From the NCBI RefSeq assembly GCF_007004735.1, contig NZ_SSNL01000006.1, positions 310,001 to 374,000 of the forward strand: a DNA stretch of 64,000 bases. Reading direction: 5' to 3'. Positions within the stretch are counted from its first letter, which is position 1, and the number at the start of each line of letters is the position of its first letter. The position numbers were made by a program, and so were the translations under genes. The notes beneath the pieces are model-generated. The model was not told where the DNA came from. It did no database searches and saw only the letters and a list, made by a program, of their open reading frames with translations. The DNA comes from Salinigranum halophilum. Its GTDB lineage: Archaea > Halobacteriota > Halobacteria > Halobacteriales > Haloferacaceae. Below are positions 4,834-57,642 of the stretch, piece after piece.

Positions 4834-5199
4834 TCACACTTGCTCAGGCTCAGACGGTTCGTAGACTTGAATCCAGCCGTCACTCCTGACTTTCACGAGG
4901 TAACGGGTGTACTGAAACTCGACCGTGCCGACGCTCTGTCGAGACTCACCGTCCACGCTCGGCCCGAAGAACGCAGTTTCAATCGCTGGTACGTCTACAA
5001 TTTCGTACAGCGATGGCGATTTTACCTCAACCGGGGAGACACCTTCGGCCTCTGCGATGGCATAGACGATTGCGGTCGTGAGTCCCCCCCCCCGACAATC
5101 GGGTTGGTAGTATCGCTGTCCCACCTGCGACCAGTGCGTATCGACACCACTGGTTGGGTCGTCGTCGCTTCTTATTCCGCCGTTAGTCTTCTCGGTCAT
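4834..5199 (-). CDS. HalOD1 output-domain protein
   Basis: 121 residues. The core LTTAIVYAIAEAEGVSPVEV, then LYEIVDVPAIETAFFG, then TVEFQYTRYLVKVRSDGWIQ and VYEP, matches the halobacterial output domain 1 (HalOD1), a small domain of unknown function restricted to haloarchaea. The start overlaps the end of the DUF7344-like gene by 17 bases, so the two form one transcript. DUF7344 plus HalOD1 is a frequent haloarchaeal neighbourhood thought to be regulatory, which is family knowledge rather than something shown here. Confidence 0.85.
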   Translation of the reverse strand: MTEKTNGGIRSDDDPTSGVDTHWSQVGQRYYQPDCRGGGLTTAIVYAIAEAEGVSPVEVKSPSLYEIVDVPAIETAFFGPSVDGESRQSVGTVEFQYTRYLVKVRSDGWIQVYEPSEPEQV

Positions 5200-5625
5200 T
5201 CATCTCACTCCGTGCATGTGTTTCCTGATACGAGTCGAGACTGCCACCGATGCCTTCGAGAGCGGCCAGAACTTGGTCGGCGTGTTCGGCGGTCGTAATC
5301 GTCTCGGTCGCCTCGTCGTACGCGATGACTCCTTCGTCCACCAACTTCGGAACGTGAGCGTGATACAGTGAAACGTACACCGCTTCGCGCTGGTCTTCTC
5401 GTACTTCGTGTTCGGGAATCGTGTTCTCCCACGCGGCGATTTTGGTCGCCAACTCCGTCAACGACCACTCGGTGTCTTCGAGGAGGGTGTAGCAGATGTA
5501 GCGCTGTCGGGCGTGTCCTAAGGCCTCGTACACCGACTCGATCTATAGGGCGGCGGCAGTTGCGTGTCGGGTGACGCGGACACGTCGGATGCTGCTTCCT
5601 CATCCGCACCCCGTTCGTCAGCCAT
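5183..5625 (-). pseudogene. DUF7344-like winged-helix gene with an apparent frameshift
   Basis: The domain half (5183-5533) encodes VYEALGHARQRYICYTLLED, typical of DUF7344 haloarchaeal regulators, and continues to a wing-like YHAHVPKLVDEGVIAYDEAT. The expected N-terminus, MADERGADEEAASDVSA ending LPPPYRS, lies directly upstream in another frame from an ATG at 5623-5625. The two join if one base is added near 5538-5546. Either the gene carries a one-base deletion, the sequence has an error there, or translation starts late at about 5533. A TATA-like TATATA lies at 5630-5635, just upstream of the ATG. Confidence 0.65.
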
Positions 5626-5819
5626 ATTGGTATATAACACGCAGAGTGCATTAACGATTCTCCCGAGTTGGGGGAAGACGGTGTTTGCCTGTCTTGATTT
5701 ACGAGGGGAGAACAGATAATCGTTTGAGGGTTTCAACGGAGTCATTTCATTTTCATCGATTGCACTCATATCTGTGAGTGGACGGTAATTATATTGACTA
5801 CAACCTCGTGCTAGTCTGT

Positions 5820-6350
5820 ATGAACGTCTCCGACGACGAACGTGGTCCGCCTCGCTCGGATTTCTCGGGAGATTTGGGTGAACGACTCGAAAACGCTCCG
5901 GCGGACGAACGCGTGTACCGAACCGCACTCGAACTCACCAGCCCAACTCGTGTTGTGGAGGTTGCAGAGCGAGCCGACTGTTCAAAGAATTCGGCTCGTC
6001 GGCACCTGCGACGGCTTGCTGACATCGGCGTGTTGACGCGGGTGACGGAAAACCCGGAGGCGTTCGAGCGGAACGAGTCGTACTTCGAGTGGCGGCGACT
6101 CAATCGACTCTCGGAACTGGACGACGACGAGTACCGAGACCGACTCGGTGAACTCCTCTCAGAAGACGAAACGTACCGCGAAACGTACGATGTCGAGACG
6201 CCGGACGAAATCGACCCACTGGAGTACGGAGAGTACGGCGACGCCGAGAAGGTCTGGCTGGACCTGAACAACTGGACTGCGATTCGGAGAGAGATTCGTG
6301 ACCTCAGGCGCTCCCGACGGGAGAGTCCCGTCGACGAAGGGGTCGCCTGA
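5820..6350 (+). CDS. Winged-helix protein (DUF7342-like)
   Basis: 176 residues from the ATG at 5820-5822; an upstream start at 5778 adds a non-acidic leader and is less likely. Residues ~30-85 form a wHTH: RVYRTALELTSPTRVVEVAE, then RADCSKNSARRHLRRLADIG and VL, followed by the NESYFEWRRLNRLSEL segment typical of the haloarchaeal DUF7342 group. The charged C-terminal tail is probably helical. It is divergently transcribed from the DUF7344/HalOD1 pair and followed two bases later by a partner gene. Confidence 0.75.
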   Translation: MNVSDDERGPPRSDFSGDLGERLENAPADERVYRTALELTSPTRVVEVAERADCSKNSARRHLRRLADIGVLTRVTENPEAFERNESYFEWRRLNRLSELDDDEYRDRLGELLSEDETYRETYDVETPDEIDPLEYGEYGDAEKVWLDLNNWTAIRREIRDLRRSRRESPVDEGVA

Positions 6351-6950: not shown

Positions 6951-7003
6951 TAGGACTTCGGCGCTATGTCGTGGTTGACCCCGATTTGCATCGACACAGA
7001 GCC

Positions 7004-7408
7004 ATGGCACTCGAACCACTCGACCCAGACACAACCGTCGAACCGTACCTCGAAGACCACAAGAGCGAGTTAGCGACCCAATACGCGCACTCCTCACGAC
7101 TCGGCCACCTCATCCGGTGGTGTGACGAACAGGACATCGACAACCTGAACGACCTGACCGGACGGACGCTGCACCGCTACAGACTTCGGCGGCGTGCAGA
7201 TGGCGACCTTGCCCCTCCGAGTGAGAAATCACAGATGGACACCTTGCGAGTATTCATCCGATGGTTCGGAACCATCGACGCTGACGTACCCGAACCGATA
7301 GTGAGTGCGCAAGCGAACGTCTCCACAGCGGTTCTAGACGAACACTACGACCGGCGGACCCAACGCGAGAAGATAGAACAGAGGCGGAAGTATCTCGATC
7401 AGATCTGA
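7004..7408 (+). pseudogene. Tyrosine integrase with its catalytic core deleted
   Basis: From the ATG at 7004 the frame encodes the N-terminal SAM-like DNA-binding domain of a haloarchaeal XerC/D-like integrase (MALEPLDPDTTVEPYLEDHK, LGHLIRWCDEQDIDNL, MDTLRVFIRWFGTIDADV). It then jumps directly to the last ~35 residues ([20 protein letters not shown]). The roughly 180-220 residues that normally carry the catalytic Arg...His-x-x-Arg residues are missing without loss of frame, so the product of 134 residues cannot recombine DNA. It could still bind DNA as a truncated regulator. Full-length family members are about 330-380 residues. Confidence 0.8.
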
Positions 7409-7683: not shown

Positions 7684-8898
7684 TCACTCTGGCCAGGGGA
7701 ATCTGGTCTGGAACTGACCGCGTATTGAATTTGCAGATTTCGACAATTGGCTCGATGTTAGATCGGCAGAACCGTCACCGGGACTTCTCACCGTCTGTTT
7801 CACCGCGTAACGGACCATGGATTCAATTTCAGCACCGGTTCTACCGTTTATTAACCCCTCATCGGGAGTGGGTGTACCCTTCGTAACAAACTGTTGTAAC
7901 TCAGGCGAAAGTCGGTGCCCATTTTCGGACTTCCGAATCCGCTCAAGATAATGATGAAGCACAGATAGTGCATTCGAGCCAGACAGAGGACTGAACTCAA
8001 TAGATTCTCCGAACCGGCCTGGGCGCGTTAATGCATCATCAAGTACGTCCGGGATGTTTGTCGAAGCAATCACCTGTACTGGACGTCCGGCGGAATTATT
8101 GGTGCGCTCAGTTCCATCAAGCAGGACTAATAGTTGCGCAACGAGTTGTGCAGTATGATCCTGGGTTGCGCCACTTCTCGAGCGGGCAATGGCGTCAATC
8201 TCATCAATATAGAGAACGCCTGCATCACGTGAGCGAGCCTCCTCAAACTTCTCTCGAAGCTGTCGTTCCGACCCTCCCACCCATCGGCTCAATATCTCTG
8301 GGCCAGAAATCACGACGGGAATCGAACCGTATCGTTCCTCGCACACTTCAGTGACGAGTTGAGTCTTCCCAGTACCAGGTGGTCCCTGCAATAAGAGTCC
8401 ACGCTCCGGAGTCAGCCCCCAGTCTGAAGGGACATTTGACAGAAACTCGATGAGATCTTGTTTTTCGGAGTCTAACCCCGAGACTCGACGCACGCCCGCA
8501 GGTGCAAGCTGTTCTCGCCCAGCTGGTTTGAGAAAGCTTCGGTCAGTCGAGAATATCAACTCAGACGGGACCACTTCGTCCTCGAGTTCTTCCGTACACT
8601 CGAGTATGAGCGTACCATGGTTGCCCCCAGACACTTCTCCACCTACAGGTATCTCATACCGATACCACGTCTTGACACCTCCTTCTGTGTACTCGAAATG
8701 TTCAGAGTACTCTTCCAGATTATGTCCCGCGAAATTGAGTTCGGTTTGCGAATTCAACTCACCTGAACGGCGGATACGAAGACTGTTTGACTCCTCAGTG
8801 ATGGTTGGAAGAAATCGCTGCCCATCGGTTGTAAACGCTCGCCGAACGAGTTTGCCGTTAGACACATCGGTGACGAATTCCTCGAAGAATTTACGCAT
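7684..8898 (-). CDS. AAA+ ATPase of CDC48/proteasome-activating type, last gene of a three-gene unit
   Basis: 404 residues. An N-terminal ~130-residue beta-rich region of unknown fold is followed by an AAA+ module: Walker A GPPGTGKT (172-179), pore-loop-like RWVGGSER (~205), Walker B GVLYIDEIDA (227-236), sensor 1 IASTN (277-281), arginine-finger segment TRPGRF (~291-296) and a C-terminal lid. These features predict an oligomeric remodelling or unfolding ATPase. The start overlaps the end of the upstream 613-residue gene by 8 bases, and that gene overlaps the one before it, so all three should act together. Compared with PAN/CDC48 it has a single AAA domain and a unique N-domain. Confidence 0.9.
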   Translation of the reverse strand: MRKFFEEFVTDVSNGKLVRRAFTTDGQRFLPTITEESNSLRIRRSGELNSQTELNFAGHNLEEYSEHFEYTEGGVKTWYRYEIPVGGEVSGGNHGTLILECTEELEDEVVPSELIFSTDRSFLKPAGREQLAPAGVRRVSGLDSEKQDLIEFLSNVPSDWGLTPERGLLLQGPPGTGKTQLVTEVCEERYGSIPVVISGPEILSRWVGGSERQLREKFEEARSRDAGVLYIDEIDAIARSRSGATQDHTAQLVAQLLVLLDGTERTNNSAGRPVQVIASTNIPDVLDDALTRPGRFGESIEFSPLSGSNALSVLHHYLERIRKSENGHRLSPELQQFVTKGTPTPDEGLINGRTGAEIESMVRYAVKQTVRSPGDGSADLTSSQLSKSANSIRGQFQTRFPWPE

Positions 8899-10732
8899 TT
8901 GTCAACGCCCCCTCCACGGCAACGACACCTGAACACCCGTTTCCGTCAAAGCGTGGACTCAAAAGGAGGACTCTTGGTTGGTCGTGAGTCTGGTTCCACT
9001 GAGAAATCATCCTTCGAACCGCGTTTGACTGGAGTCGGTCCAGCTGCAAGACCCAGGGGGGAACAACCACTCCGACGATGTCGACCGTTGATTCATCGTA
9101 TTTCTCAATAGTTTCGTAAATCTTTCTGAACCCAAACGCCCCCTCGGAACGACCTGTCTCAAACTCGAATGCGAGAGTTTCGACCCCATCAAAATCACAC
9201 TGACCCTCAAAAAACGCGTCCAGTATGGACTCAGGTTCGCCAAGCGTAGAACAATCAACGTGTACATCTGCTTCCCCAGAATTGATTTGGTTATTTGATT
9301 CGGTCTGAATTGCCTCCGTTACAACATTGTTGAAGTACGACCGATAGTTTTCGTACTCCGAGGCATCGGTCTGTTCGTAGGCTACTCTCCCGAATTTGCT
9401 CGCGATTAGAGCTTTACTCAAGTAGTGGAAATCGCTCTCACCAATGCCTTCCTGACTGTTCTGGCGGCTGGTTAATGCGATTGCGTACCAATCTGGTTGT
9501 TCGATATTCCGCCAGAAGCGGTCTTCTACCCCTACGAGAGAACAGTCCTCAGTATCTCCGTCATAGCCGAGATACTCCGCCATAACGCGACTCCATTGAG
9601 CAGAGTTGTCCGACCGGGTTACAGAGATAACTGTCGTGTTATCCTCTTCTGGACTCCCAAGCGCATCGATAAGGGCATCGTACACCTGCGTTGCGACACT
9701 TCGTGTCTCGAAGAGCGAATGCCCAACATCACCAGGAACATTGAGCACGAGGTATCCAAGCCTCCCTGAGAACTGTGATTTGGAAACAGCGGTGAGTTTT
9801 GGGAGGACATCAGTACCGTTGTATCTGACTCGGAATCTATCCGAGTCGGTATCAAACTCCCACTCATCTCCGGTCATATCCAACCGCAACACGCTGTTTG
9901 CAAGCGCTGGGATCTGTGGACGATTGGAGACGAACTTGACCGGTTCGACCACCGGTTCACCGCCCTCAATGAAGCTGTACTGGTCTCGAAGCACCCGACA
10001 GAGATACTCGAACGATTCCGGTTCCTTCGGTGGCTGCTCATATACGATTACCTGGGGCCTCCGGCGGCTGAGTGGGGAAAGTTCCCCTCCCTCTGTTCCA
10101 TCCCACTCTTTGAATTCGAACAGTCCCTCAAAGTCGGTCGCTGTCGATGCTTTGGCTTCTGTGTGTCTTTCCTCGAATTTCATTTGTGGCTGGTGCCGTC
10201 GTAACTGGACCGAGTCAACCGTCGTTACTTCCATCGCTGACCTACCAGTCGGTTTGAGAGGATTCAGAACGGTATCCTGCTCGCGGCTAATTGAAACAGC
10301 GGGGGTCTCAAATTGGTGCTGTATATTTGAACTGTCGGTAAGAGTGAGACTCCGTTCCACGTACTCTGTCGACTGAGTGACGACCGCGTTCTGTGTCTTC
10401 TGGTGCCACAGCTGTGATTCCAACTGTCCCTTCGGGTTTCGGAGGGTAATTTCCCGAGCACTCCTTGCACTGACAGAGACTCTAACCGAGTGTATTTCGG
10501 GTTTCTTGAGTCGAGAGCCGAGGTCTTTGCCTCCCGTTCGCTCTGGAGATGGTTCAGTCGCCTGGTTACCGTCTGCCGACTGCTGTGCTTTCTCCAATTC
10601 ATCCTCAGTCTCGTCCGACGTGTCGTCAGAATCGGGGTTGGAGTGGTTTCCGGTCCGGGATGCGTATCCACGATTCCTTGCGTTTCTTTGTGGATCTTCA
10701 TCCAGCCTATCGAGTTCTCTGTCACCATCCAT
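8891..10732 (-). CDS. Unknown 613-residue protein, possible PD-(D/E)XK-like C-terminal domain
   Basis: The N-terminal ~80 residues are disordered and charged (DSDDTSDETEDELEKAQQ). The middle is beta-rich. The C-terminal third has the order helix (YLSKALIASKFGRVAYEQ), ADVHVDCS, then VETLAFEFETGRSEGAFGFR and KIYETIEK, then VDIVGVVVPPWVL. This beta-hairpin/acidic/helix order is compatible with a PD-(D/E)XK nuclease fold, although the lysine is not in the usual place. It overlaps its neighbours on both sides (8 and 11 bases). Family not recognised; nuclease is a hypothesis only. Confidence 0.6.
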   Translation of the reverse strand: MDGDRELDRLDEDPQRNARNRGYASRTGNHSNPDSDDTSDETEDELEKAQQSADGNQATEPSPERTGGKDLGSRLKKPEIHSVRVSVSARSAREITLRNPKGQLESQLWHQKTQNAVVTQSTEYVERSLTLTDSSNIQHQFETPAVSISREQDTVLNPLKPTGRSAMEVTTVDSVQLRRHQPQMKFEERHTEAKASTATDFEGLFEFKEWDGTEGGELSPLSRRRPQVIVYEQPPKEPESFEYLCRVLRDQYSFIEGGEPVVEPVKFVSNRPQIPALANSVLRLDMTGDEWEFDTDSDRFRVRYNGTDVLPKLTAVSKSQFSGRLGYLVLNVPGDVGHSLFETRSVATQVYDALIDALGSPEEDNTTVISVTRSDNSAQWSRVMAEYLGYDGDTEDCSLVGVEDRFWRNIEQPDWYAIALTSRQNSQEGIGESDFHYLSKALIASKFGRVAYEQTDASEYENYRSYFNNVVTEAIQTESNNQINSGEADVHVDCSTLGEPESILDAFFEGQCDFDGVETLAFEFETGRSEGAFGFRKIYETIEKYDESTVDIVGVVVPPWVLQLDRLQSNAVRRMISQWNQTHDQPRVLLLSPRFDGNGCSGVVAVEGALTNA

Positions 10733-11837
10733 TGAACTCTATCTCTTCGAGGGGGAGGATGTCGGCTATGGCTCGGATTCTGGGTTCGTCTTCGGTCGAA
10801 TAATGATTATGCGTTGGCCTTTTTGTTGAATCCAAAGTCACGCTCCCTCTTGAGTTGAGGTAGAACGGAAGCAGGAACAACGCTTTAGCAACAGTATCTT
10901 TATCAGTGGGTACTCGCCCCATACGTTGGAACGCTGCCTGTATTACCTCGTCCACAGCCTCAGTTCGTGGGATGTTGTCCTCCCAGCTCTGGTATCGAAG
11001 TTGTTCAAGAGCATTTAAGCCGCCTTTCTGGTCCTCGACTTCGATTTCTATGTCGAATTCGGACGAGATTTGATATAACTTTGTAATATTGTCAAACAAA
11101 TCCTGGTCTCTTCTCGTGTCCAGACCCGCCTGTTTCAGTGTCTGCTCCACGCCGACTGGAAGAAGTTGATTGTATTCTGGGTCAAGCCCAGTCACGACTA
11201 CATTCAGTGCTTGAAGAGTTGGATTGACCGGAGGACAAAGCTCGAGCACTGCTTCGAAGAACTCTTCGAACTCCTCAGTCACGCGTAGAGTGTCAAACAT
11301 CTCTGTCCCCTCACCCACTCGGTCAAGAACGAACGGATTCTCAGGCAGTTCCAGTCGTTCAAGATTGATATATGGCTCGGTGTTTTCGATATCTAACCTG
11401 CCTTCGAAGTACTCACTGACGTCGTCAAAGGCTTCTAGAGCCATCATAAGGTCTGAACTCTCCAGAGTAGGAAGATTCACTTGTGTTTCGGATGGGTTAC
11501 TCTCCTCAAGTCTCGGTAATTGCTCCACAGTGATGTGCTCAGTTGTGTCAAGCTCAAAGGACCACTCGAACTCTCTCAGCCACCACGGAAGGTTTTCAGT
11601 CCCAGTCTCAGTTCTGGTGTACCCAATCAGATTCTGTGTTTTGTCTGGTAGCTCTGAGAAAGCCACATATTTAGTTCCCTTATGATCTGATTCCTCCCCT
11701 AGCAACACTGAACGAAGTTTCTCTTCGATATGGGTTTTATATCTCTGTTCATTCGGGAGAGCATCAATCGCAGCATGTACCGATTTGAGTTTGTCGATGC
11801 TGAGCGCTTCTTCATATGATGTTTTTGTGGTATCCAT
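10722..11837 (-). CDS. Unknown acidic protein, first gene of the ATPase unit
   Basis: 371 residues from the ATG at 11835-11837 (a GTG two codons earlier is an alternative). It is Glu/Asp-rich and largely helical, with no transmembrane segment, signal peptide or catalytic motif that I recognise. Segments such as FEEFFEAVLELCPPVNPTLQ and ALNVVVTGLDPEYNQLLPVG suggest a folded middle domain, and RMGRVPTDKDTVAKALFLLP looks wHTH-like. Overlapping genes imply it is an obligate partner of the 613-residue protein and the AAA+ ATPase. Confidence 0.6.
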   Translation of the reverse strand: MDTTKTSYEEALSIDKLKSVHAAIDALPNEQRYKTHIEEKLRSVLLGEESDHKGTKYVAFSELPDKTQNLIGYTRTETGTENLPWWLREFEWSFELDTTEHITVEQLPRLEESNPSETQVNLPTLESSDLMMALEAFDDVSEYFEGRLDIENTEPYINLERLELPENPFVLDRVGEGTEMFDTLRVTEEFEEFFEAVLELCPPVNPTLQALNVVVTGLDPEYNQLLPVGVEQTLKQAGLDTRRDQDLFDNITKLYQISSEFDIEIEVEDQKGGLNALEQLRYQSWEDNIPRTEAVDEVIQAAFQRMGRVPTDKDTVAKALFLLPFYLNSRGSVTLDSTKRPTHNHYSTEDEPRIRAIADILPLEEIEFNGW

Positions 11838-11989: not shown

Positions 11990-12577
11990 TTAGAAAGCAT
12001 CAAATCCACTCCATACTTGATTGCGAACAATCGATTGAAACCCATGAGCGAACACAAGCAGCAGTCCGCTCTCTAGCCCGTGTGGTTTCACAGACGTCCG
12101 AATCATCACCGGTCCCTGTCGCTCCAGTATCGTGAGGGTATTCTCGAAGTACCCAGCACACCCAGCCTCCGTCACCGCAACAGAGGCCGAATCTGACCCA
12201 ACAGACCACAGTTCTTCGACTTCCCACACCCTTCCCTCTGAATAGCTGAGCGGCGGATTATCACAAGCAGCGTATGCAGCGTCGACGAGTTCCTGATACA
12301 CCATCCCCTCTGGTTCACGGTATTTTTCATTCACCGGCCACAGAACACCCGAGAAGACTGCACCGGGCCGTGTCGCGTCGTAATCGACGTGGTACCTGAC
12401 GAACTCCGCTGCAAATCGTGAGGGTGGGACGGAGATGGTGTCGATAGAACTCCAGTACGTCGAACAGATTCCCTTGACCTCATCGCCGGGAAGTGTCTGT
12501 TCGTAGTCGTCCCAGATATCGGACGGTCGTAGTGCGTACGTCGGCGAAACGGTCTCGTCGTCTGAGTGGTTGGTCAT
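11990..12577 (-). CDS. Unknown haloarchaeal protein
   Basis: 195 residues. It is acidic with mixed alpha/beta character (RFAAEFVRYHVDYDATRPGA, GMVYQELVDAAYAACDNPPL), and ends in a hydrophobic beta-rich part (GLLLVFAHGFQSIVRNQVW). No signal peptide or motif is recognised. Its ATG overlaps the stop of the upstream Tat-signal gene in an ATGA-type 4-base overlap, so it is cotranslated with a probably exported protein. Function unknown. Confidence 0.55.
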   Translation of the reverse strand: MTNHSDDETVSPTYALRPSDIWDDYEQTLPGDEVKGICSTYWSSIDTISVPPSRFAAEFVRYHVDYDATRPGAVFSGVLWPVNEKYREPEGMVYQELVDAAYAACDNPPLSYSEGRVWEVEELWSVGSDSASVAVTEAGCAGYFENTLTILERQGPVMIRTSVKPHGLESGLLLVFAHGFQSIVRNQVWSGFDAF

Positions 12578-13263
12578 TCGAAATCACCGAGTGACAAATC
12601 AGTCGAACCGTCGCCGGCAGCGTTTAGTTTCTCTTGTTGGTACTCTGTGATACGGCTGAGGAACCGCTCGTATGGCCACTCTTGGAACGACTGGTCGACT
12701 GGACCGAACAGGTTCGTCAAGAGTGCCACTGGTCCCCGGAGGTGCAGTCGCATGGTCTCGGTGAACGTGTGCCGCCCGCCTTCTCTCTGTGGTCCCTCTA
12801 GCAGCATCTCATCGATCCAGATGTCGACGTTCCAGTCGAGATATCCCGAGTGCCGCTCGTGCCGATTCTCGAACCTCCACGAGGGAGGTGTTTCCTCGTC
12901 GTATTCGTTGACGAACTCGTGGTGGGAGTCGGTGGTAGCTCTGATAACTGACTCAAGTGGGACTCCATCAGGGACAACATATGCCAGAGTCGTGAGAACC
13001 CACAGTGGATTCTCCTCGGTTCCCCGTGCCCAGAACCCACGGCCTGCAAACGTTGCGTCAGCAAACGACGCGTCGACGGAACGGAGACGTTCGAAGAATG
13101 GCACGTCTTTCGGTGTACTCACGCGGGTGAACGCATCAGGAATCTCGGTGGAGGATACGAGGAACTCTGTAGGAGAGGGTGCTTCCGAGGACGTCGTACT
13201 TCTCGGAAGACTCGAAGACAACGCCGTTGCTCCCATTGCGGTAAGGTACTCACGGCGATTCAT
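12574..13263 (-). CDS. Putative Tat-exported protein of unknown function
   Basis: 229 residues from the ATG at 13261-13263, chosen because it begins directly with a twin-arginine-like signal MNRREYLTAMGATALSSSL. No lipobox Cys follows, so a secreted rather than lipid-anchored protein is likely. The mature part contains WARGTEENPLWVLTTLAYVV and an acidic helical tail. No family is recognised. It forms a two-gene unit with the 195-residue protein and lies beside the unknown gene at 13329-14780. Confidence 0.6.
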   Translation of the reverse strand: MNRREYLTAMGATALSSSLPRSTTSSEAPSPTEFLVSSTEIPDAFTRVSTPKDVPFFERLRSVDASFADATFAGRGFWARGTEENPLWVLTTLAYVVPDGVPLESVIRATTDSHHEFVNEYDEETPPSWRFENRHERHSGYLDWNVDIWIDEMLLEGPQREGGRHTFTETMRLHLRGPVALLTNLFGPVDQSFQEWPYERFLSRITEYQQEKLNAAGDGSTDLSLGDFE

Positions 13264-13328
13264 CGACACCACCACTGTTCGACGCACTTCTGAACCAGCG
13301 AGTGAAGCGTGAGTGTCATGTGTCGAGT

Positions 13329-20675: not shown

Positions 20676-20705
20676 GGCGTTCTACAAAGAGACACGGTGA
20701 AATCC

Positions 20706-23700
20706 ATGAACACGATATCTCTCCAGGAGTTTGAACGGAAATGGGACGAACTGAACGGGTGGGAGATCGAGGGCGGAAAATCCGATATCCTCCACCACGA
20801 GAAAGGGCCACTGTGGGTCCTTGCAGGCCCGGGAAGCGGTAAGACAGAGGCGCTCATCATCAGGACCCTCCGACTGCTCGTCGTCGATGGCGTTGATCCC
20901 GAGTCGATCATGCTCACGACTTTCACGGAGAAGGGGGCCGAAGAACTCGAAGATCGCATTGCAGTTGCGGTTCAGGCGTTTGGATACGATGACGAAATCG
21001 ATGTGACGAACCTCCGGAGCGGCACGCTTCATAGCCTCTGCGACGCCCTCATGGACGAGTACCGCTACCCACAGTACCTCGATCTCCAGTTGCTGGATCA
21101 GCACGACCAAGAGTTCTTTGTGAGGCGGCATGCTGGCGACCTTCTGTCGTGGCTCAAGGATGCCGACAGTGGGGCACACCAGTTCTTCGAGTCGCTTCGG
21201 TTACCGTGGAAACGGACGTACCCACCCAACACCTGGGAGGCGACTCGTCTAGCGATACAGTTGCTCAACAAGTCCCGTCAGTATCGGACTGATCCGGACG
21301 CGCTCGCCAACAGCGATGAATCGGTGTTACGTGACTTGGGTGCCCATCTGGTGGCGTACGAGGAACTGCTCGGCGACCCCGACCAACAGCGGTGTGATTT
21401 CGCCGCGTTACAGGAGCATTTCTTGGACTTCATCGAGTCGACATCGAGCGACCGGTTGTTCGAGGGTGACCCAGAGGTGGAGAAACCTCCGCTCGAGTAC
21501 GTCCTCGTCGACGAGTACCAAGACACTAATCCGCTTCAAGAACGGATCTACTTCGAGCTCGCAAAGCGGTGCAGTCAGAACCTGACGGTCGTCGGTGATG
21601 ACGATCAAGCGCTCTACCGGTTCCGGGGCGGCACCGTCGAGTGTATGGTTCGATTCGGAGCGAAGTGTGAAGACGAACTCGGCGTGTCTCCGAACACGGC
21701 GCAACTGACGGAGAACTTCCGCTCACACGGCGAAATCGTCCAGTGGATCAACCGATACATCCACAATCATCGTGAGCTCAGTTCGGATCTGCGGGCGCCG
21801 AACAAAGAGCAGTTGGAACCGGCTGCCGGCATTGAAGCCGAATACCCCGCAGTCAATGCTATTTTCGGAGAGAGCAGGCGTGAGACGGCTGAACTCACCG
21901 CCGAACTCATCGAATACGTTCTCGAGGAAGGCGTTCTGGACGACCCCAGCCAGATCGCATTGCTCGTCCGGAGTTCACGTGAGTCTCCGCAGAACGCCGG
22001 TCCATTCGTCGAGGAACTCCAAAATCGAGGGATCAACGTGTACAACCCACGAAACAAGGCACTCATGGATCAAGAGGAGGTTCGATTAGCCTTGGGCGGC
22101 CTCATTACGGTATTAGACCGTGAGCTCGCGCTACTCGAAAGCGACAGAATACGGGGGAACTTCCAGGAGACGGCACACGAATGGATCGCCGAATTCGAGG
22201 CGCTTCGGACTGAAACCCGGGGGGACGGACTCGATGAGTACGTGAAGAATGCGCATGCGAATCTCGATAACCGCGACACTGAGGAGTGGCTCGAGTCGGT
22301 GATGGACGTCTTTTACCGACTCGTCTCTCACGAACCGTTCAGTTCGTGGCGTGAAACCGAACCGAACCGAGCGAAACGCCTTGCGACGCTGACGAACCTC
22401 CTCGAAGCGTACACGAACGTCTACAGCGGAAAGCTCCGGACGTCGGGTCACTACGAAGGGCACATCTCACATGGATGGCTGATGGGGTTCTACTACAACT
22501 TCATCCAGTACGTCGCGAACTCGGGGTTCGACGAACCGGAGGACCCCTACGACCAGATTCCGGCGGGATACGTCCAGGTGATGACCGTCCACCAGGCGAA
22601 GGGGCTCGAATTCCCGTTCGTCATCGCTGGTGACGTCGACAAGAGTGACGGCCCCGACGGGACCCACTTCATGGAAGACGTCCTCGCGCCGTATTCGGAC
22701 CTGAACACTGACGGGAGTAGTGCCGAAGTGCGTGCAGCAGGCGATACTATCAGGCGATTCTTCGTCCAGTACTCGCGGGCACAGGACGCGCTGGTTCTCG
22801 CCGGGACAAAATCTGGCACAAAGCAGGTCGCGCTGGGGAACGACACCGGTGGACGAGCAGTGACGCCAGACTCACTGGCAGCCCGAGGTCGGGTACTCAG
22901 TGACCGGACCGACTTCGCCCGATTCGAGGCCATCGACAGAGAGTACGAGCCGAACGACGGCGTTAGACGGCGGTACAGTGTCACCGGTGACATCCTCTCG
23001 TACCGTCGATGTGCACGTCAGTATGGTCACTTCTCTGACTATGGATTCTCACCCGCCCAGGCTGCACAACTGTACTTCGGGACAGTTGTTCACGAAACCC
23101 TCGACCGGATGCACCAGCAGTATCGTGGGCAATTAGATGACGTACCTGAAGGGATTCCGAACGAGGCGGATATCGAGCGATATTTCACTCAGGTGAGTAA
23201 CGCCCTCATCGCTCATGGAACGAAACCGATGAGTGGTGATGCCAAAGACCGGGCACTCGCATACATCAAACGTTTCAACGAACAGATGGCTGATGAACTG
23301 TATCCACGAGTCAAAGACACCGAACACCGACTCCAGTCACAACAGGAGAGCTTCGTCATCGAGGGGACTGTCGACGTCCTCGTGCGGGACGAGGGGTCGC
23401 TGGAAACCGACGACCCGGACGAGTGGGAGATATGGGACTACAAGGCGGCACAACTGCCTACAGACGGTAACATCGACATCGAGAACTACCGCTACCAGAT
23501 GCAGGTCTATGCCGGACTCTACGAGCAAAAAAACGGCGTGCTCCCGTCCCGCGCAGTTCTGTACTTCATGGGCGAGTCAGACCCCGAGCAGGCACAGGTC
23601 GAAATCGAATTCGACAGGACGCAAATCGACCGCGCTCTGGAGACGTTCAGAGCGACCGTCGGCGATATCGAACAGAGTCGGGACACACAGGAGTGGCGAC

Positions 23701-23798
23701 CGCCGAGCGAGGCCCCGTCCGAAGAGACGTGTTCGGCCTGCGACCTTCGGTGGGACTGTCCCACCGTCGATGCGCAGTACCCGATGCGTGCTCCCTGA
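20706..23798 (+). CDS. UvrD/RecB-like helicase fused to PD-(D/E)XK nuclease with probable Fe-S cluster
   Basis: 1030 residues from ATG 20706 (GTG at 20697 is an alternative). Superfamily 1A helicase motifs: LAGPGSGKT (~42), LTTFTEKGAEELEDR (motif Ia), LVDEYQDTN (~270), GDDDQALYRFRG, LTENFRSH and MTVHQAKGLEFPFV (~628). The C-terminal ~260 residues form a RecB-type nuclease: GTVDVLVRD, WEIWDYKAA (~910) and the YQMQVYAGLY helix. A Cys near 770 (YRRCARQY) and the cluster CSACDLRWDC (~1011) match the four-Cys Fe-S staple of AddB/Cas4-like nucleases. It should unwind and cut DNA ends. Partner to the upstream Mre11-like protein. Confidence 0.9.
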   Translation: MNTISLQEFERKWDELNGWEIEGGKSDILHHEKGPLWVLAGPGSGKTEALIIRTLRLLVVDGVDPESIMLTTFTEKGAEELEDRIAVAVQAFGYDDEIDVTNLRSGTLHSLCDALMDEYRYPQYLDLQLLDQHDQEFFVRRHAGDLLSWLKDADSGAHQFFESLRLPWKRTYPPNTWEATRLAIQLLNKSRQYRTDPDALANSDESVLRDLGAHLVAYEELLGDPDQQRCDFAALQEHFLDFIESTSSDRLFEGDPEVEKPPLEYVLVDEYQDTNPLQERIYFELAKRCSQNLTVVGDDDQALYRFRGGTVECMVRFGAKCEDELGVSPNTAQLTENFRSHGEIVQWINRYIHNHRELSSDLRAPNKEQLEPAAGIEAEYPAVNAIFGESRRETAELTAELIEYVLEEGVLDDPSQIALLVRSSRESPQNAGPFVEELQNRGINVYNPRNKALMDQEEVRLALGGLITVLDRELALLESDRIRGNFQETAHEWIAEFEALRTETRGDGLDEYVKNAHANLDNRDTEEWLESVMDVFYRLVSHEPFSSWRETEPNRAKRLATLTNLLEAYTNVYSGKLRTSGHYEGHISHGWLMGFYYNFIQYVANSGFDEPEDPYDQIPAGYVQVMTVHQAKGLEFPFVIAGDVDKSDGPDGTHFMEDVLAPYSDLNTDGSSAEVRAAGDTIRRFFVQYSRAQDALVLAGTKSGTKQVALGNDTGGRAVTPDSLAARGRVLSDRTDFARFEAIDREYEPNDGVRRRYSVTGDILSYRRCARQYGHFSDYGFSPAQAAQLYFGTVVHETLDRMHQQYRGQLDDVPEGIPNEADIERYFTQVSNALIAHGTKPMSGDAKDRALAYIKRFNEQMADELYPRVKDTEHRLQSQQESFVIEGTVDVLVRDEGSLETDDPDEWEIWDYKAAQLPTDGNIDIENYRYQMQVYAGLYEQKNGVLPSRAVLYFMGESDPEQAQVEIEFDRTQIDRALETFRATVGDIEQSRDTQEWRPPSEAPSEETCSACDLRWDCPTVDAQYPMRAP

Positions 23799-50904: not shown

Positions 50905-51039
50905 CCGCCATGGAATGACGGTATAGATGCCTGTAACAGCTGAATTCCAATCAGTGTTTTCATCGACCCCCAATTCACCGCTCCCCCCGGGGGGTCGATG
51001 GAAGTTGCTCACTCTCGTGAAGAAGACTACCTGCTACAA
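50905..51039 (-). promoter_or_regulatory. CRISPR leader
   Basis: The 135 bases between array and cas2 hold an inverted repeat CATCGACCCC...GGGGTCGATG (50961-50970 and 50991-51000) able to form a hairpin in which GGGGGGTCGATGG faces CCATCGA-type arms. Leaders adjacent to the newest repeat carry the promoter and integration-host elements. AATTCCAATC and the G-run region are candidates for conserved leader boxes. Identification rests on repeat polarity and position beside cas2-cas1. Confidence 0.75.
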
Positions 51040-51300
51040 TCAGGTAAACCGGCTTCCAGGAGCCTCTGCAGCGCCGAACGTTGTGAAATCGAACGCCGCC
51101 TGGTTTGTTGTCTCGAAGACCACGATCGAATCATCATCCTCCAACTCCGACTCAATCTCGTTTTTCATGGCCTCAACCTGTCCTGGAGTGAGTTGCCCAT
51201 AGAACACGGAGTACTGGAGGTGTTCAAGACGTCTTCGCAGCAGCTTGCGATAGACGTGCGTTCGGTCGGCTGGGACATCGTACACAACAATGACTTGCAT
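51040..51300 (-). CDS. cas2: CRISPR adaptation endonuclease Cas2
   Basis: 86 residues from the ATG at 51298-51300; a GTG four codons earlier would overlap cas1. Ferredoxin-like fold start MQVIVVYDVPADRTHVYRKL, with the catalytic-type Asp in YDVP, then LEHLQYSVFYGQLT and IVVFETTNQAAFDF. Forms the spacer integrase with Cas1. Last gene of cas4-cas1-cas2, directly beside the leader. Confidence 0.95.
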   Translation of the reverse strand: MQVIVVYDVPADRTHVYRKLLRRRLEHLQYSVFYGQLTPGQVEAMKNEIESELEDDDSIVVFETTNQAAFDFTTFGAAEAPGSRFT

Positions 51301-51302
51301 CC

Positions 51303-52295
51303 TTACCACCACCGCTCTGTTGCTTGATATGGTTCTCCAGTTAGGAGGTGCTTTTTTAGACTGTACACATCTGTCTGGACCAATGTTTTGAAGCTCACTT
51401 TCCGGTTGAGTCGTGGATGCTCAATTGTCCGATCGAGAGTCTCTTCATACTCCTGCAGAACCGTCAGACGACCGTCCTCGGTTAGGAGACACCCGTCTAA
51501 GTCAGATTCAAAATCATCAACGGTTATCTGTTGGCGGTTCACCAACCGGAACACGAGCCGATCCGCAAGAATCGGCTTAAATATGTCTGCGATATCGAGC
51601 GAAAGGGTGAATCGTCGCTCTCCGGGTTCATGAACGAACCCGACGGTTGGGTCGAGTGCGGTTTTCCTAATCGCGGATACACACGTCGTGTAGACCATTC
51701 CATTGAGAAACGACACAAGCGCGTTTGCCTCGTTTGACGGTGGGTTGTACTCACGCCTTTCCAACGCAAAGGGTTCGCGAAGAATCGTGTCGAAACACCG
51801 ATAGTACTGTTTCCGTGCATTCCCCTCAACAGCTCGGAGATTGTCGATTGTCTCTGTACTGGTGACTCGTTCCTTTAGTTCGCTGAGCTTGTCCAACGTG
51901 GTGGAGAAATCTCCTTTGCGGCTAGAGTAATACCGAATATTAGCCCGCATATTGTGGATGCTCGCTTCAATGACCTGGTGAGCAATCCTTAGTCGTCGCT
52001 TATCATCGTAAGCCCGCACTTGTTCGACAACTGTATTCCCCGAGACTTGGCCTCGTTTCGGAAGGTATGACCCTTTGTAGTAATCCTTCCAACCGAAGAC
52101 GTGTACCGGAACGCCGTGGTCGTTCAATAGCCCCAGCGCACGGGTGTTGAAATCAATCTGCCCGTGGAGATACAACGAATCGACGGATTCGACCGGGAGG
52201 TACTTTGTCTCTCCGTCAAGGGTGTCGATTCTCAGTGTACTCTCATTGCGGGACAATTCCCCATCAGCGAAGATATGATGATTTGGTTTTGTCAT
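51303..52295 (-). CDS. cas1: CRISPR integrase Cas1
   Basis: 330 residues, the usual length. Catalytic residues are visible: Glu in VEGNARKQYY (~160), His in VGFVHEPGERRF (~223) and Asp in LSLDIADIFKPILADRLVFR (~237). The N-terminal beta domain (TLDGETKYLPVESVDSLYLH) matches the family. It inserts new spacers with Cas2 and Cas4. Four bases separate it from cas4. Confidence 0.95.
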   Translation of the reverse strand: MTKPNHHIFADGELSRNESTLRIDTLDGETKYLPVESVDSLYLHGQIDFNTRALGLLNDHGVPVHVFGWKDYYKGSYLPKRGQVSGNTVVEQVRAYDDKRRLRIAHQVIEASIHNMRANIRYYSSRKGDFSTTLDKLSELKERVTSTETIDNLRAVEGNARKQYYRCFDTILREPFALERREYNPPSNEANALVSFLNGMVYTTCVSAIRKTALDPTVGFVHEPGERRFTLSLDIADIFKPILADRLVFRLVNRQQITVDDFESDLDGCLLTEDGRLTVLQEYEETLDRTIEHPRLNRKVSFKTLVQTDVYSLKKHLLTGEPYQATERWW

Positions 52296-52299
52296 AGTT

Positions 52300-52851
52300 T
52301 TACATCCAACAGAGGTCTTGATACAGACAGGAATCGCAGTATGGTTTCTTTGACAACTCGGGGGGTGTCTCTTCTGCCACTAAATCAAGAATTCCGATGA
52401 TGGTCCGCTCAACCTCGGCGGTAGCCCGTTCATCCAACCGCACCGATTCCCGTTTTCGCTCGGTTGGGTATGCAAGAACGCCGTCTTTCTCGATATCATA
52501 GACGTATTTCAGGAACCACAAGTAGAACAGAAGCTGCATTCGAGCTGGCTTTTCTAATGTGGAAGACACCTTTATTTCCATTACAGCCCCTGAATCGAGC
52601 AAATCAAGTTGAATACGATTGCCGATCATGAACGACCGGCGTGAGTCCTGATAGCTTGTTTCGTCAACGTGAGTGCCACGTTGAATGTTCGTCGTTTCGC
52701 GGTCGATATCGATTCCACGAGACATGAACCACAGCTCCCGCTCACAAACATGGTAATACTGTACCATCAGCCCAGTGACCGGCGTTGCTGGTCGGGTCCC
52801 AATCTCACGCTCTTCTTGGGTGTACTCATCAATCCGATCACCAGTACTCAT
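52300..52851 (-). CDS. cas4: Cas4 Fe-S exonuclease
   Basis: 183 residues. First cluster Cys in YYHVCERELWFM (~35); the last three in YCDSCLYQDLCWM at the C-terminus (Cys-x2-Cys-x5-Cys). The nuclease centre is visible as GTHVDETSY, LDLLDSGAVMEIKVSS (Asp...Glu-x-Lys) and MQLLFYLWFLK. Cas4 trims prespacers and helps select the PAM. First gene of a short cas4-cas1-cas2 unit, separated from cas3 by a 153-base gap. Confidence 0.95.
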   Translation of the reverse strand: MSTGDRIDEYTQEEREIGTRPATPVTGLMVQYYHVCERELWFMSRGIDIDRETTNIQRGTHVDETSYQDSRRSFMIGNRIQLDLLDSGAVMEIKVSSTLEKPARMQLLFYLWFLKYVYDIEKDGVLAYPTERKRESVRLDERATAEVERTIIGILDLVAEETPPELSKKPYCDSCLYQDLCWM

Positions 52852-53004
52852 TGTCGTGCCTCACAGTAGTGACAGACTGTGACCAATTATGACTCATCAG
52901 AAATTCCATATAGACAGATTGTTTTGTCATGCTATTGGTCTTTCCCCTAGTCGGACTACTCGGCCCTACGGTCGTCTTGTTCCATCAGGCGGATATCCCC
53001 CCAA
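52852..53004. promoter_or_regulatory. Gap between cas3 and cas4, probable second cas promoter
   Basis: All other cas genes are at most 40 bases apart, so this 153-base gap suggests a separate transcript for cas4-cas1-cas2. On the minus strand, upstream of the cas4 ATG, TCATAATTGG (52884-52893) is about 32-42 bases away and is TATA-like. An incomplete inverted repeat (AGTGACAGACTGTGAC, 52867-52882) lies between it and the gene. Confidence 0.45.
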
Positions 53005-55755
53005 TTAGAGGGTGAACCGACCACCGACGCTGTCTTCGCGTCCCTGAAGGCCCCCATCCGTCAGCGAATACTGTAATGCCGAGTCCTCAACGTAACAGAA
53101 CACATTGACCCCGTCTTCATTCCGTCTTTTCCCGTCGAGTCGTGCAATCCCTGGCGCGTCTTCGACGATCGTGGCTGGAAGCGAGACACGCATTCGGGAC
53201 GCTGTATCCAACTCGTCGTACGCGGTCACATCCCCCTGCGTAAACCGCTCAGTGAGTGTATTCACGAACTCGACCTCGGCGTCGGTTACAGCCACAAGCA
53301 CATCGACTGTCTGGTAACCACCGATGAGTGACTGCCGGGCCAGCCAAGCTGCATTTGCGAGGTCGATATTCTCTCTGATTTCTGTCGAACTGAGTGACTT
53401 GTCACTGAGTGCGTCGAAGTACCTGTCGACCGCTCGTTTCGAGAAATCAACATCGGAGATGTCTGTGGGATTCTCGACCGTCGCAAGAACATCAGCGATT
53501 AGCTGGAGGTGAGCGGGAATCCCGCGGTTGTACACGTAGTGAGCCGGTGGGTGCGTGGACTCATCGTTCGGTGGGCCCAGCGTCCAGACGGTGACTCGCC
53601 CTCCGTTCTGCCCCCACTCATATGACCGATTACAGCGGCCAGCAGCTTGGACGATGCTATCTAACGGTGCGATATCTCGGTAGACACGCTTGAAGCTGAG
53701 GTCGACACCCGCTTCGATTGCTTGCGTCGAGACCAACACGAAGGGGACGGCACTCGTAGAGAGGGTATCGGCTAGCTCGATGATGACTTGCCGGTCGAAT
53801 GGCCGATACCGCGAATTGAGGGTCAACACGAACGGCCCGGCCGTTGTTTCACCCCGTGATTCAGGCGGCTCACGCTCTTGGAGATCGTGTCTCGCGAGCA
53901 CTTCCTGAGCAATCTGGGTCGATGTCACCGCTGGCTCGAATGCGGTGACATTCCGCTCGCGTACAACTGCCTCGATAGTGTCACCGAGGTGTGTGACATC
54001 TCCGTGGTTACAGAGGTGTGTGGTCAGGGTTTGCGAACTCTCAATCGTATTGCACACCGTAAGAACCGAGCCATCGTCGGTTGTTGCACGGTGAATTCGG
54101 TCGGCTGCCGTCTGATGCTCGAGATATGTATCCTCGACAGCGAGTTGGTGACTGAGCGCCGTCTCGTCGATTGTGTACCGGACACGCTCGGCGCGCTCGA
54201 AATACGCTGTTTCAGCAACCGGTGGGAGAGTCCTCGAGTACTCTGGGCCTGTTGCACACCACTGGCAGCCGTCTTCCTCGTGGATTTCACCCGCCTCTAG
54301 TAGCGAGACGGTTTCTAAGTCACGAAGGAGACTGGGTTGGGTCGCAGTCATCGCGATGATTCGCGTCCCATACTCGTCGGTCAGCAAGTCCAATTCACGC
54401 GCAATGGCATCCCACCACGCCTTTGGCAGCGCTTGTGGTTCGTCTAAGATGACGAGGCCCTCATCCAGCGCTGACAGCTTCAGTCCTTGTCTGTTCGAGG
54501 GGCCAGTCAGACTCTCAAAGAGTTGGACGAACGTCGTGAGAATCGTGCCATCCCGCCACGACTCTCCCAACAACTGCGCACTCTCGTTTGCGTCCGAATC
54601 TCCGACATCACTCGTGTCTTGTTCGCCGTGGTAGACGACAGTCTCACTCAGATAGTGATGAACCGTCAGACCTGACTGGGTTGGGTCTGCACCCCATAGG
54701 TCGGGGTCTTCAAAGAGCGCCCTCGTCTGTTCGATAATCGAGGTGTACGGCAGCGCGTACACGATTGGGTGCTCTGACCCTCCTTCCGTGAGCATATCAC
54801 GGGCCTCAAACGCAGCTGAAAGTCCCGTCAGTGTCTTTCCGAGCCCCGTCGGGAGCGTCAAGGTTGCAATCGGGGTGCCGTCTCCAATCCACTCGTGAAC
54901 TCCACGGAGTGCTTGCCGTCGGGCGCGTTCGCGATCAGTATTGAGTGCCGTTTGTTCCGAAGTCTCTGCAGAGTCATTCCTCAGACTCTGGACATAGTCT
55001 TCAATCGTGGCCCGGTCAAGGGTCTCGATATCGAATATGTGTTCAGGAGTGATATCCATCGCGTGGCTCTTATCCGCCAGCGTGATGGCCGCCCAGTAGT
55101 GCAGTGTACGGTCGTACAACCGCTCCGGAAGCTGTCTAGCGTTCGATTCTGGCCCTGTGAGTTCGCGTCGAGCGGCCGCATCGTACAGGTCCTCGGCGAT
55201 GGCCCCGTCGTTGACCCAGGCCTCGAACTTCTCCCACGACACAGCCACTCCGGTAAGGTTGAGTAGTTCGGCCGCAGCAACCGGCCACTCGTCACTGATG
55301 GAGGCGCACTGGGCACGAATCACAGGTCCAGTAAACGCTTCTGCAAGCGTATCGACCGTGTACGGTGCCGCGTCTGGAAGGGCCTGATGATGGCGAGCAA
55401 CCGCTAGTGTCGCCGCGAGACAGTCCCGTGGTGGGGCTCCCTGTTCTGCGAGGACAAACCACGTCGCGAGGGCACCCAGCCGGGCGTGAAAGCGTTCTTC
55501 GTCGGGTCCTTCGTAATGCTCTCCAGGACGCACATAGGCTTGGAACTGCGGTGTGGCCTTCCCGAAGTCATGGAGTGTCGCCGCCGCGTGAAGGTAGGAC
55601 GCCCGCTCGTCAGTCGGCCCAAACAGTCGGGTGGCTCTATCGGCGACGACTGAGCTATGTGCGGTGAGCCGAAGGTCGCCACGCGAGGTAAGTTGTGACG
55701 AGGGATAGTCGTGGGTCGTTCCTGCAGTAGGGTGTGAAATAAGCGGTGGGTCCAT
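53005..55755 (-). CDS. cas3: Cas3 nuclease-helicase
   Basis: 916 residues from the ATG at 55753-55755 (MDPPLISHPT); an upstream extension to 55965 overlaps cas5 and is unlikely. HD nuclease domain: His in LTAHSSVV (~33), LHDFGKA (~62) and RHHQ (~121). Helicase: Walker A TLPTGLGKT (~300), LVILDEPQALP (DEAD-like), MTATQPS, and motif VI VQAAGRCNRSYEWG after STQAIEAGVDLSFKRVYRDI. This degrades DNA recruited by Cascade. It follows cas5 by 40 bases. Confidence 0.95.
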   Translation of the reverse strand: MDPPLISHPTAGTTHDYPSSQLTSRGDLRLTAHSSVVADRATRLFGPTDERASYLHAAATLHDFGKATPQFQAYVRPGEHYEGPDEERFHARLGALATWFVLAEQGAPPRDCLAATLAVARHHQALPDAAPYTVDTLAEAFTGPVIRAQCASISDEWPVAAAELLNLTGVAVSWEKFEAWVNDGAIAEDLYDAAARRELTGPESNARQLPERLYDRTLHYWAAITLADKSHAMDITPEHIFDIETLDRATIEDYVQSLRNDSAETSEQTALNTDRERARRQALRGVHEWIGDGTPIATLTLPTGLGKTLTGLSAAFEARDMLTEGGSEHPIVYALPYTSIIEQTRALFEDPDLWGADPTQSGLTVHHYLSETVVYHGEQDTSDVGDSDANESAQLLGESWRDGTILTTFVQLFESLTGPSNRQGLKLSALDEGLVILDEPQALPKAWWDAIARELDLLTDEYGTRIIAMTATQPSLLRDLETVSLLEAGEIHEEDGCQWCATGPEYSRTLPPVAETAYFERAERVRYTIDETALSHQLAVEDTYLEHQTAADRIHRATTDDGSVLTVCNTIESSQTLTTHLCNHGDVTHLGDTIEAVVRERNVTAFEPAVTSTQIAQEVLARHDLQEREPPESRGETTAGPFVLTLNSRYRPFDRQVIIELADTLSTSAVPFVLVSTQAIEAGVDLSFKRVYRDIAPLDSIVQAAGRCNRSYEWGQNGGRVTVWTLGPPNDESTHPPAHYVYNRGIPAHLQLIADVLATVENPTDISDVDFSKRAVDRYFDALSDKSLSSTEIRENIDLANAAWLARQSLIGGYQTVDVLVAVTDAEVEFVNTLTERFTQGDVTAYDELDTASRMRVSLPATIVEDAPGIARLDGKRRNEDGVNVFCYVEDSALQYSLTDGGLQGREDSVGGRFTL

Positions 55756-55795
55756 CTGGTATCTGAAAGATGAGGGTGGGTTGTGCTGGGCCAGC

Positions 55796-56593
55796 CTACC
55801 GGAACACGACGGTTCTCTCACCGATCTCGACCGGCACAATATCTGTATCCTCGCGGACGCGAACCGGCTTGGGACCTTGTTGTGCGTAGACGTAATCGTC
55901 GAAGCGCGTCGTCCGCCGGCCATCGCCGTCTGCTTCCATAATTGCAGGTGACCGCTCCGTCCCATACGTCACCCCTCCCTGTGGGACTGCGTCCGACAGC
56001 GAAATCGGGACGACTGAATCAATATCGAGCGACCCATCAACACCATGTGTGGTCGGTGTACGGTCGGCTTTGACGTCTTCAATAGTCGCGAGGTATTCTG
56101 ATTTACCTAGGCTTGGGGTATAGATGGCCGTTCCATTTATCAAGTGCTCACGCAGAGTACTGTAGAACGCTTCATCCTCGAGTGCGACATCGATTCGATA
56201 GCTTGGGTCGGCCAGCACCTCATACGCATGCAGTTGGCGGTCGCGGTCCGTTTCCTGATAGGTCAACTGGTACGACGCCCAGTGTCCGGCCGTCGTCGTG
56301 ACGTCCTGCTTTGGGTCTGTTCCGAGGCCAGTTGTTGGGATATTGACCGTCCGAAGGTTCGACAGTGGTGTAATCGCGACCGCCGAGTTGTCCGCGCTGA
56401 AGATATCGTAGTACGAATCTCGGTCAGCACCGACGATCGCCGCGAGCAACCCGGCGACGGTGGTCCGCGGCGGGATACGATAGGTTTGCTTCGTCACGCT
56501 TCGGCCGACCCGCTTGAAGTGGCCCCAAGTAGACCGGATGGTAAACGACAGACAGCGGTCCGGAACGCCATCGTCGTCGATGGTAGGTGCCAT
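55796..56593 (-). CDS. cas5: Cascade subunit Cas5 (type I-B)
   Basis: 265 residues. N-terminal RAMP strand [18 protein letters not shown] and the conserved [20 protein letters not shown] are diagnostic of Cas5h/b. The C-terminus ([13 protein letters not shown]) is a short beta segment. It caps the crRNA 5' handle. Located 8 bases after cas7. Confidence 0.95.
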
Positions 56594-56601
56594 GACGAGG
56601 G

Positions 56602-57627: not shown

Positions 57628-57642
57628 TGGTATGGGAGTGAA

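Follow-up and report, generated by a model that had tools for sequence, protein, structure and literature searches.

Within the window, by which is meant the whole 64,000-nucleotide stretch that was analysed and which sits within a 645-kb contig, three genes on the minus strand, here termed A, B and C, follow one another with overlaps at both junctions, A/B sharing 10722-10732 (11 bp) and B/C sharing 8891-8898 (8 bp). The coordinates of the genes and the overlaps of 11 and 8 bases given in the original prediction were reproduced by ORF analysis; for gene A, an alternative start is possible at a GTG (11843). The features of the unit, of its proteins and of its surroundings are collected in Table 1.

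Table 1. Positions of the A-B-C genes, the domains and motifs of their products and the neighbouring or related genes
Feature	Sequence	Position	Strand	Remarks
Gene A, 371 aa	Window	10722-11837	Minus	ORF from ATG
Gene B, 613 aa	Window	8891-10732	Minus	ORF
Gene C, 404 aa	Window	7684-8898	Minus	ORF
B head, residues 1-205	Window	10118-10732	Minus	Low hydrophobicity, D/E/S/T-rich (~206 residues)
B middle domain, residues 227-395	Window	9548-10054	Minus	Conserved alpha/beta; GGEP and LGYLVxNVP motifs; alignments A1/A2/A6
B nuclease domain (predicted, CoiA type), residues 395-613	Window	8894-9550	Minus	Alignment A7, hhalign, Foldseek
C Walker A GPPGTGKT, residues 172-179	Window	8362-8385	Minus	Invariant in 12/12 aligned copies
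C aromatic pore loop W206-V207-G208	Window	8275-8283	Minus	Invariant in 12/12
C Walker B LYIDEID, residues 229-235	Window	8194-8214	Minus	L229, Y230, I231, D232, E233 and D235 invariant in 12/12
C arginine fingers R292 and R295 (RPGR)	Window	8014-8025	Minus	Invariant in 12/12
Decayed tyrosine recombinase (apparent), 145-aa ORF	Window	6971-7408	Plus	~275 bp past C
Overlapping gene pair, 195 and 237 aa	Window	11990-13287	Minus	Directly upstream of A
UvrD-type helicase, 1033 aa	Window	20697-23798	Plus	PADLOC match (1.7e-34) to DRT-associated helicase and GajB models
Cas3	Window	53005-55965	Minus	Type I-B
Cas7b	Window	56602-57627	Minus	Type I-B
Cas8b	Window	57643-59775	Minus	Type I-B
Tiamat (TmtA)-like, 2136 aa	L015	11975-18385	Minus	Directly upstream of A
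Tiamat (TmtA)-like, 2153 aa	L037	11817-18278	Minus	Directly upstream of A
Distant B relative, 573 aa	L074	7735-9456	Minus	In a BREX operon; PglX on one side, genes leading to BrxC/BrxB on the other

Conservation and distribution of the A-B-C unit

The gene-neighbourhood survey that the original prediction had called for found A, B and C together in 15 of 15 distinct loci (the window, L013-L019, L037-L040, L073, L093 and L094), in each case on one strand with A 5' of B and B 5' of C; a loss of this order, named beforehand as speaking against the unit, was seen at none of them. These loci represent many genera of haloarchaea as well as one archaeon outside the haloarchaeal class. Junction overlaps of a few base pairs are also seen in several other copies of the unit, and in a metagenome-assembled copy (L016) gene A is broken into two frames. 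When the ORFs around 17 loci were compared all-against-all, the only genuine families common to all 15 loci were A, B and C, the next commonest groups of neighbours being antisense shadow ORFs inside C (nine loci), followed by further shadows and a metallophosphoesterase (four loci). Because A, B and C alone recur in this manner, the system consists of exactly three genes. Gene A was never found without B, i.e. a profile of A matches 10 of 382 genomes of the class, all of which are also B-positive, and homologues of A were seen only adjoining B. Judged by this shared order and co-occurrence, A, B and C form one conserved unit, in keeping with the single functional module that had been proposed.

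With the window's own B as the query, seven relatives were found among 146 other archaeal genomes, and a profile of the B family disclosed further copies within 391 genomes of the class plus one genome outside it; tblastn added two plasmid copies of the unit. The full unit is patchily distributed over many genera, in approximately 11 of the 391 class genomes, and three copies are plasmid-borne. Named carriers include Halorutilus salinus (L020) and plasmids of Haloplanus sp. GDY1, Haloplanus rubicundus and Haladaptatus sp. DYSN1. The viral contigs and phage records that were searched gave no relative of B, and thus there is no sign of viruses carrying it. This distribution bears upon whether the unit could be an accessory complex for DNA repair or recombination, its nuclease and remodeller working on damage in the DNA of the host itself. 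PD-(D/E)XK nucleases and Cdc48-like remodellers, the types of protein considered below for B and C, both occur in repair. Nothing obtained in this analysis points that way, however, and a unit that is rare (~3 % of haloarchaeal genomes), low in G+C (50.7 % vs 55.9 % for the whole window) and fast-diverging (~25 % identity) is unlike core repair genes, and such a role is highly improbable.

The three encoded proteins

The one AAA domain of protein C is of the classical type (PF00004, 2.8e-32, far above AAA_5) and follows an unrecognised N-terminal region of ~130 residues; the nearest NCBIfam models of the protein are CDC48 (5.6e-37) and PAN (7.9e-31), with both matches falling far below the cut-offs. 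The Walker A and B motifs, the pore loop and the arginine fingers (Table 1), along with the sensor 1 residue N281, are invariant in the 12 aligned copies. AAA proteins that thread polypeptides, including Cdc48, Vps4 and FtsH, are characterised by a pore loop of the order aromatic-hydrophobic-glycine. By its sequence, then, C is predicted to be a classical AAA ATPase of the Cdc48/PAN/Vps4-like kind that is competent for both hydrolysis and threading, which bears out the earlier description of a single-AAA CDC48/PAN-like remodeller with an odd N-terminus. Most relatives of C are longer at the C-terminus by 140-180 residues, which by hhalign (P 0.0011) resemble a second AAA domain in degenerate form. 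This extension is absent from the window's C as well as from L016, L017 and L039, and no remnant of it was seen downstream of the window's C.

Protein A was described at the outset as unrecognised, and indeed has no match in Pfam, NCBIfam or PADLOC. Its alignment contains an invariant PWW (P84, W85 and W86) together with F90 and W92, making up a P-W-W ... F-x-W patch, in addition to two more conserved regions. Because of its gene position, its standing as the least characterised of the three and its restriction to the unit, A is a putative recognition/adaptor or sensor subunit.

Protein B also has no match in Pfam, NCBIfam or PADLOC, and a comparison of B profiles with PDB sequences found nothing. 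Based on alignments A2 and A7 and on hhalign, its architecture comprises a disordered head, an alpha/beta middle domain and a C-terminal PD-(D/E)XK domain. The head, which had been expected from the original prediction, was found as a low-hydrophobicity segment of ~206 residues. In several relatives of B the head has two to four degenerate [ST]V-x3-V-x-P motifs at a spacing of ~35 residues, and the copies in the window's own B are degenerate. Ten such motifs were observed in B heads vs 0.7 expected, with a maximum of four in 500 shuffles, a comparison whose true significance is lower because the B sequences are related and not independent. The middle domain is covered by an AF2 model with a mean pLDDT of 69. 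The possibility that this domain is a degenerate AAA domain was rejected on the basis of a profile comparison (P 0.12).

Within the C-terminal domain of B, residues E432, H436, K440, E478, D489, E523 and E525 vary hardly or not at all, and the same acidic, histidine and lysine residues are kept in distant B relatives (540-600 aa) from other archaea. Their order, E-S-x-x-H-x3-K ... E ... D ... E-x-E, is the same as that in CoiA nucleases, which end in E-x-Q. In an hhalign comparison with a purpose-built haloarchaeal CoiA alignment, the B domain scored 36.5 (P 8.6e-5), as against no more than 19.7 for 200 column-shuffled CoiA profiles, 13.9 for reversed CoiA and P values of 0.4-0.5 for unrelated profiles. 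The confident part of this alignment spans 25 columns only, around E-S-x-x-H-x3-K; a permissive, low-confidence extension puts D489 on the D of CoiA and E523-x-E525 on its E-x-Q. None of 15 B members matches PF06054, even at E 10, and none reaches the Pfam gathering score. Both AF2 models, which were built from only four sequences and are of moderate confidence (pLDDT 69, pTM 0.7), have by DSSP an alpha-beta-beta-beta-alpha-beta order with D489 on the second strand and E523-x-E525 on the third, and the core order and acidic positions are conserved across 24 sequences (alignment A7). The structural search that had been advised, done by Foldseek with the isolated domain, returned SfsA (4dap) as the best PDB match, a weak one (E 0.012, prob 0.77, TM 0.26), and assigned the domain to no known non-nuclease family; SfsA itself belongs to the PD-(D/E)XK superfamily (PMC1189080). 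A Foldseek run with the 413-residue core of B against the PDB and viral models was set aside, as its matches were at chance level, some of them AAA-like and with no nuclease among the leading ones. The profile result is strong support for a nuclease fold in B, whereas each structural item is weak. With the CoiA profile exceeding all of its shuffles and the catalytic positions in register, the claim that the strand and acidic-residue order is compatible with PD-(D/E)XK held up, and a relationship of the domain to CoiA PD-(D/E)XK nucleases, with a variant D...E-x-E site, is supported.

In nearly all B members, E525 stands at the position of the canonical (D/E)xK lysine, for which either K440 or R536/K537 could stand in. 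CoiA represents a PD-EXQ variant of the PD-(D/E)XK superfamily, within which an acidic residue in place of the lysine is a described variant (PMC1189080); the missing lysine therefore lowers confidence in catalysis by B but not in its fold. It is conceivable, albeit unlikely, that the PD-(D/E)XK domain of B is dead or only binds nucleic acid, in which case C, within the same module, would remodel a B-DNA or B-protein complex and thereby block replication or transcription of an invader without cutting. The lack of the lysine from E-x-E would fit such a scheme, as would the type III-A CoCoNuT extensions, where an inactivated PD-(D/E)xK fold accompanies a CDC48-like AAA protein (PMC11090510), and the haloarchaeal PbeABCD system, which protects without DNA cleavage (PMC6459918). 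However, near-invariance of the active-site residues out to distant relatives is unusual for a dead site, and CoiA-type sites (E-x-Q) are missing the lysine too. In the reading preferred here, B is a candidate DNA-cutting protein.

Genomic context and proposed function

The window also contains a type I-B CRISPR-Cas system (~51000-60600, minus strand) and a UvrD/GajB-like helicase that is a possible further defence gene. In L015 and L037, a TmtA-like gene lies 160-250 bp upstream of A on the same strand; because these two loci are close relatives, their Tiamat neighbours count as one event. The Haladaptatus copy has HsdR-like and MazF genes nearby.

Three other sets of neighbours are recorded here in their own right. 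Of the two overlapping genes directly upstream of the window's A, the longer encodes a 237-aa protein that has a Tat-like N-terminus and is without a family match, and its relatives, each forming a pair with another, overlapping gene, occur ~10 kb or less from the unit in L039 (4189-4866) and in L093 (17578-18273). A DUF6036 nucleotidyltransferase and an HVO_2833-like winged-helix regulator, which look like a toxin-antitoxin-type pair, are encoded near the unit in L013 (4698-6514) and L019 (284-2070) and inside a BREX operon in L074 (10214-11955). The 145-aa ORF beside the unit can be aligned with two segments (residues 90-186 and residues 361-402) of an L037 protein of 403 aa (4936-6147), skipping ~175 residues, and looks like an integrase with its catalytic middle deleted.

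The three plasmid-borne copies, the decayed integrase adjoining the window copy and the action of CoiA itself in DNA uptake are the sort of evidence that would favour a housekeeping unit of plasmids or integrative elements, concerned with replicon maintenance or with DNA processing at transfer or integration, and not with defence. Plasmids and viruses of archaea also frequently encode CDC48-family ATPases that serve other ends, and the family is listed as associated with these elements (arCOG01308, PMC4158269). Nevertheless, most copies of the unit are on large contigs with neighbours that differ each time, and in the comparison of neighbouring ORFs at 17 loci no relaxase, Rep or Par gene recurred with it, making a housekeeping role rather improbable.

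B is encountered in other settings as well. The distant B relative in L074 is encoded in an operon with PglZ, PglX, BrxC and BrxB; the BREX models of PADLOC do not include it, and this protein is possibly an unrecognised BREX component. An unnamed family of ~320-480 aa is encoded directly upstream of distant B in five archaeal loci (L042, L079, L080, L081 and L082), and a family of ~180-250 aa is upstream of it in L075, L076 and L078. These two partner families are mutually related (P 3.8e-5), a relationship between them and A was not detectable (P 0.3-0.4), and distant B with its upstream partner apparently makes up a second, two-gene system. B, with its BREX and two-gene contexts, is thus an effector-like protein that recurs in archaea and whose upstream partners can be exchanged, A-C being one of its settings.

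Support for a role in defence is contextual only and consists of the accessory location, the plasmids, the patchiness, the Tiamat and BREX neighbours and the CRISPR-Cas genes of the window. The evidence inclines, by a modest degree, toward A-B-C being a mobile three-gene conflict module of archaea that most likely acts against viruses or plasmids and whose nuclease is under the control of a Cdc48-like ring. In this scheme, A would recognise a target or a state, and B, bound by A and inactive or unloaded, would be the DNA-cutting effector. Using ATP, a hexamer of C would engage a polypeptide, for which the disordered head of B with its motifs is a plausible candidate, and the action of the hexamer would assemble, activate (load and fire) or recycle the nuclease complex of A and B on the DNA of an invader. 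Because C is proposed to engage polypeptide, it would be a protein remodeller and not, like McrB, a DNA motor. Against this reading, no sensor, modification or immunity gene was recognised. A more specific version, put forward tentatively and as plausible rather than probable, is that of an immune system of archaea, hitherto undescribed, whose protein-threading Cdc48/Vps4-like ring licenses a CoiA-type nuclease by pulling on the disordered, motif-bearing head of the latter, with B as a shared effector that is deployed with A-C, with the two-gene partner family or with BREX.

If true, a compact, mobile three-gene system would be added to archaeal immunity, a field in which, to our knowledge, few systems have been tested so far, and protein unfoldase rings may gate nucleases in defence. 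A and B are two protein families without an entry in the databases searched. Since the B family connects the standalone system, the two-gene units and the BREX operon, one experiment may explain several unannotated genes; at ~4.2 kb, the unit is transferable into Haloferax volcanii.

Comparison with known systems

The original prediction saw in this gene order no resemblance to a named system, and none of A-B-C composition was found in PADLOC 2.0.0, NCBIfam or the literature searched, an absence that is unproven. McrBC type IV restriction consists of the AAA+ GTPase McrB and the PD-(D/E)XK nuclease McrC, and it is like the present unit in that the genes for a PD-(D/E)XK nuclease and for an AAA+ protein that forms rings are neighbours. 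However, C is a classical AAA protein with paired arginine fingers and an aromatic threading pore loop, and where McrB carries its signature C has a classical AAA sensor-1 region, STNIPDVLDDAL; the third gene A is present; and membership was rejected on that replaced signature, on the excess of PF00004 over AAA_5 and on the lack of any match of A or B to McrC models in PADLOC. IetAS pairs the AAA ATPase IetA with the subtilisin-like protease IetS. Among defence models, C matches those of IetA in PADLOC best, by way of the AAA domain only (6e-16), but C scores 48 bits vs an NCBIfam cut-off of 510, and the unit is without a protease partner, A and B having no peptidase match in Pfam, PADLOC or NCBIfam; membership was thus rejected here also.

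Among individual proteins, CoiA (PF06054) is like B in the order E-S-x-x-H-x3-K, E, D, E-x-(Q/E) and in significant profile similarity, whereas B has E-x-E instead of E-x-Q, is without the cysteine-containing N-terminus, has its nuclease-like domain joined to a disordered head and an alpha/beta domain, and lies below PF06054 detection. The BREX operon of L074 has a B-like protein with the same two folded domains, between PglX and the BrxC side, but A and C are absent there. Membership of the Pbe system of haloarchaea was rejected, because the described Pbe proteins differ (PMC6459918) and A, B and C have no Pbe match in PADLOC. The nearest published parallel is the type III-A CoCoNuT extension, in which a Cdc48-like AAA protein adjoins a PD-(D/E)xK-fold protein in a defence context (PMC11090510). 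According to its published description, that extension is bacterial, has a double-AAA ATPase and is attached to CoCoNuT and VWA genes (PMC11090510), whereas A-B-C is archaeal, stands alone as three genes, has in C a single intact AAA domain, to which most relatives add a segment resembling a degenerate second one, and conserves the active-site residues of B.
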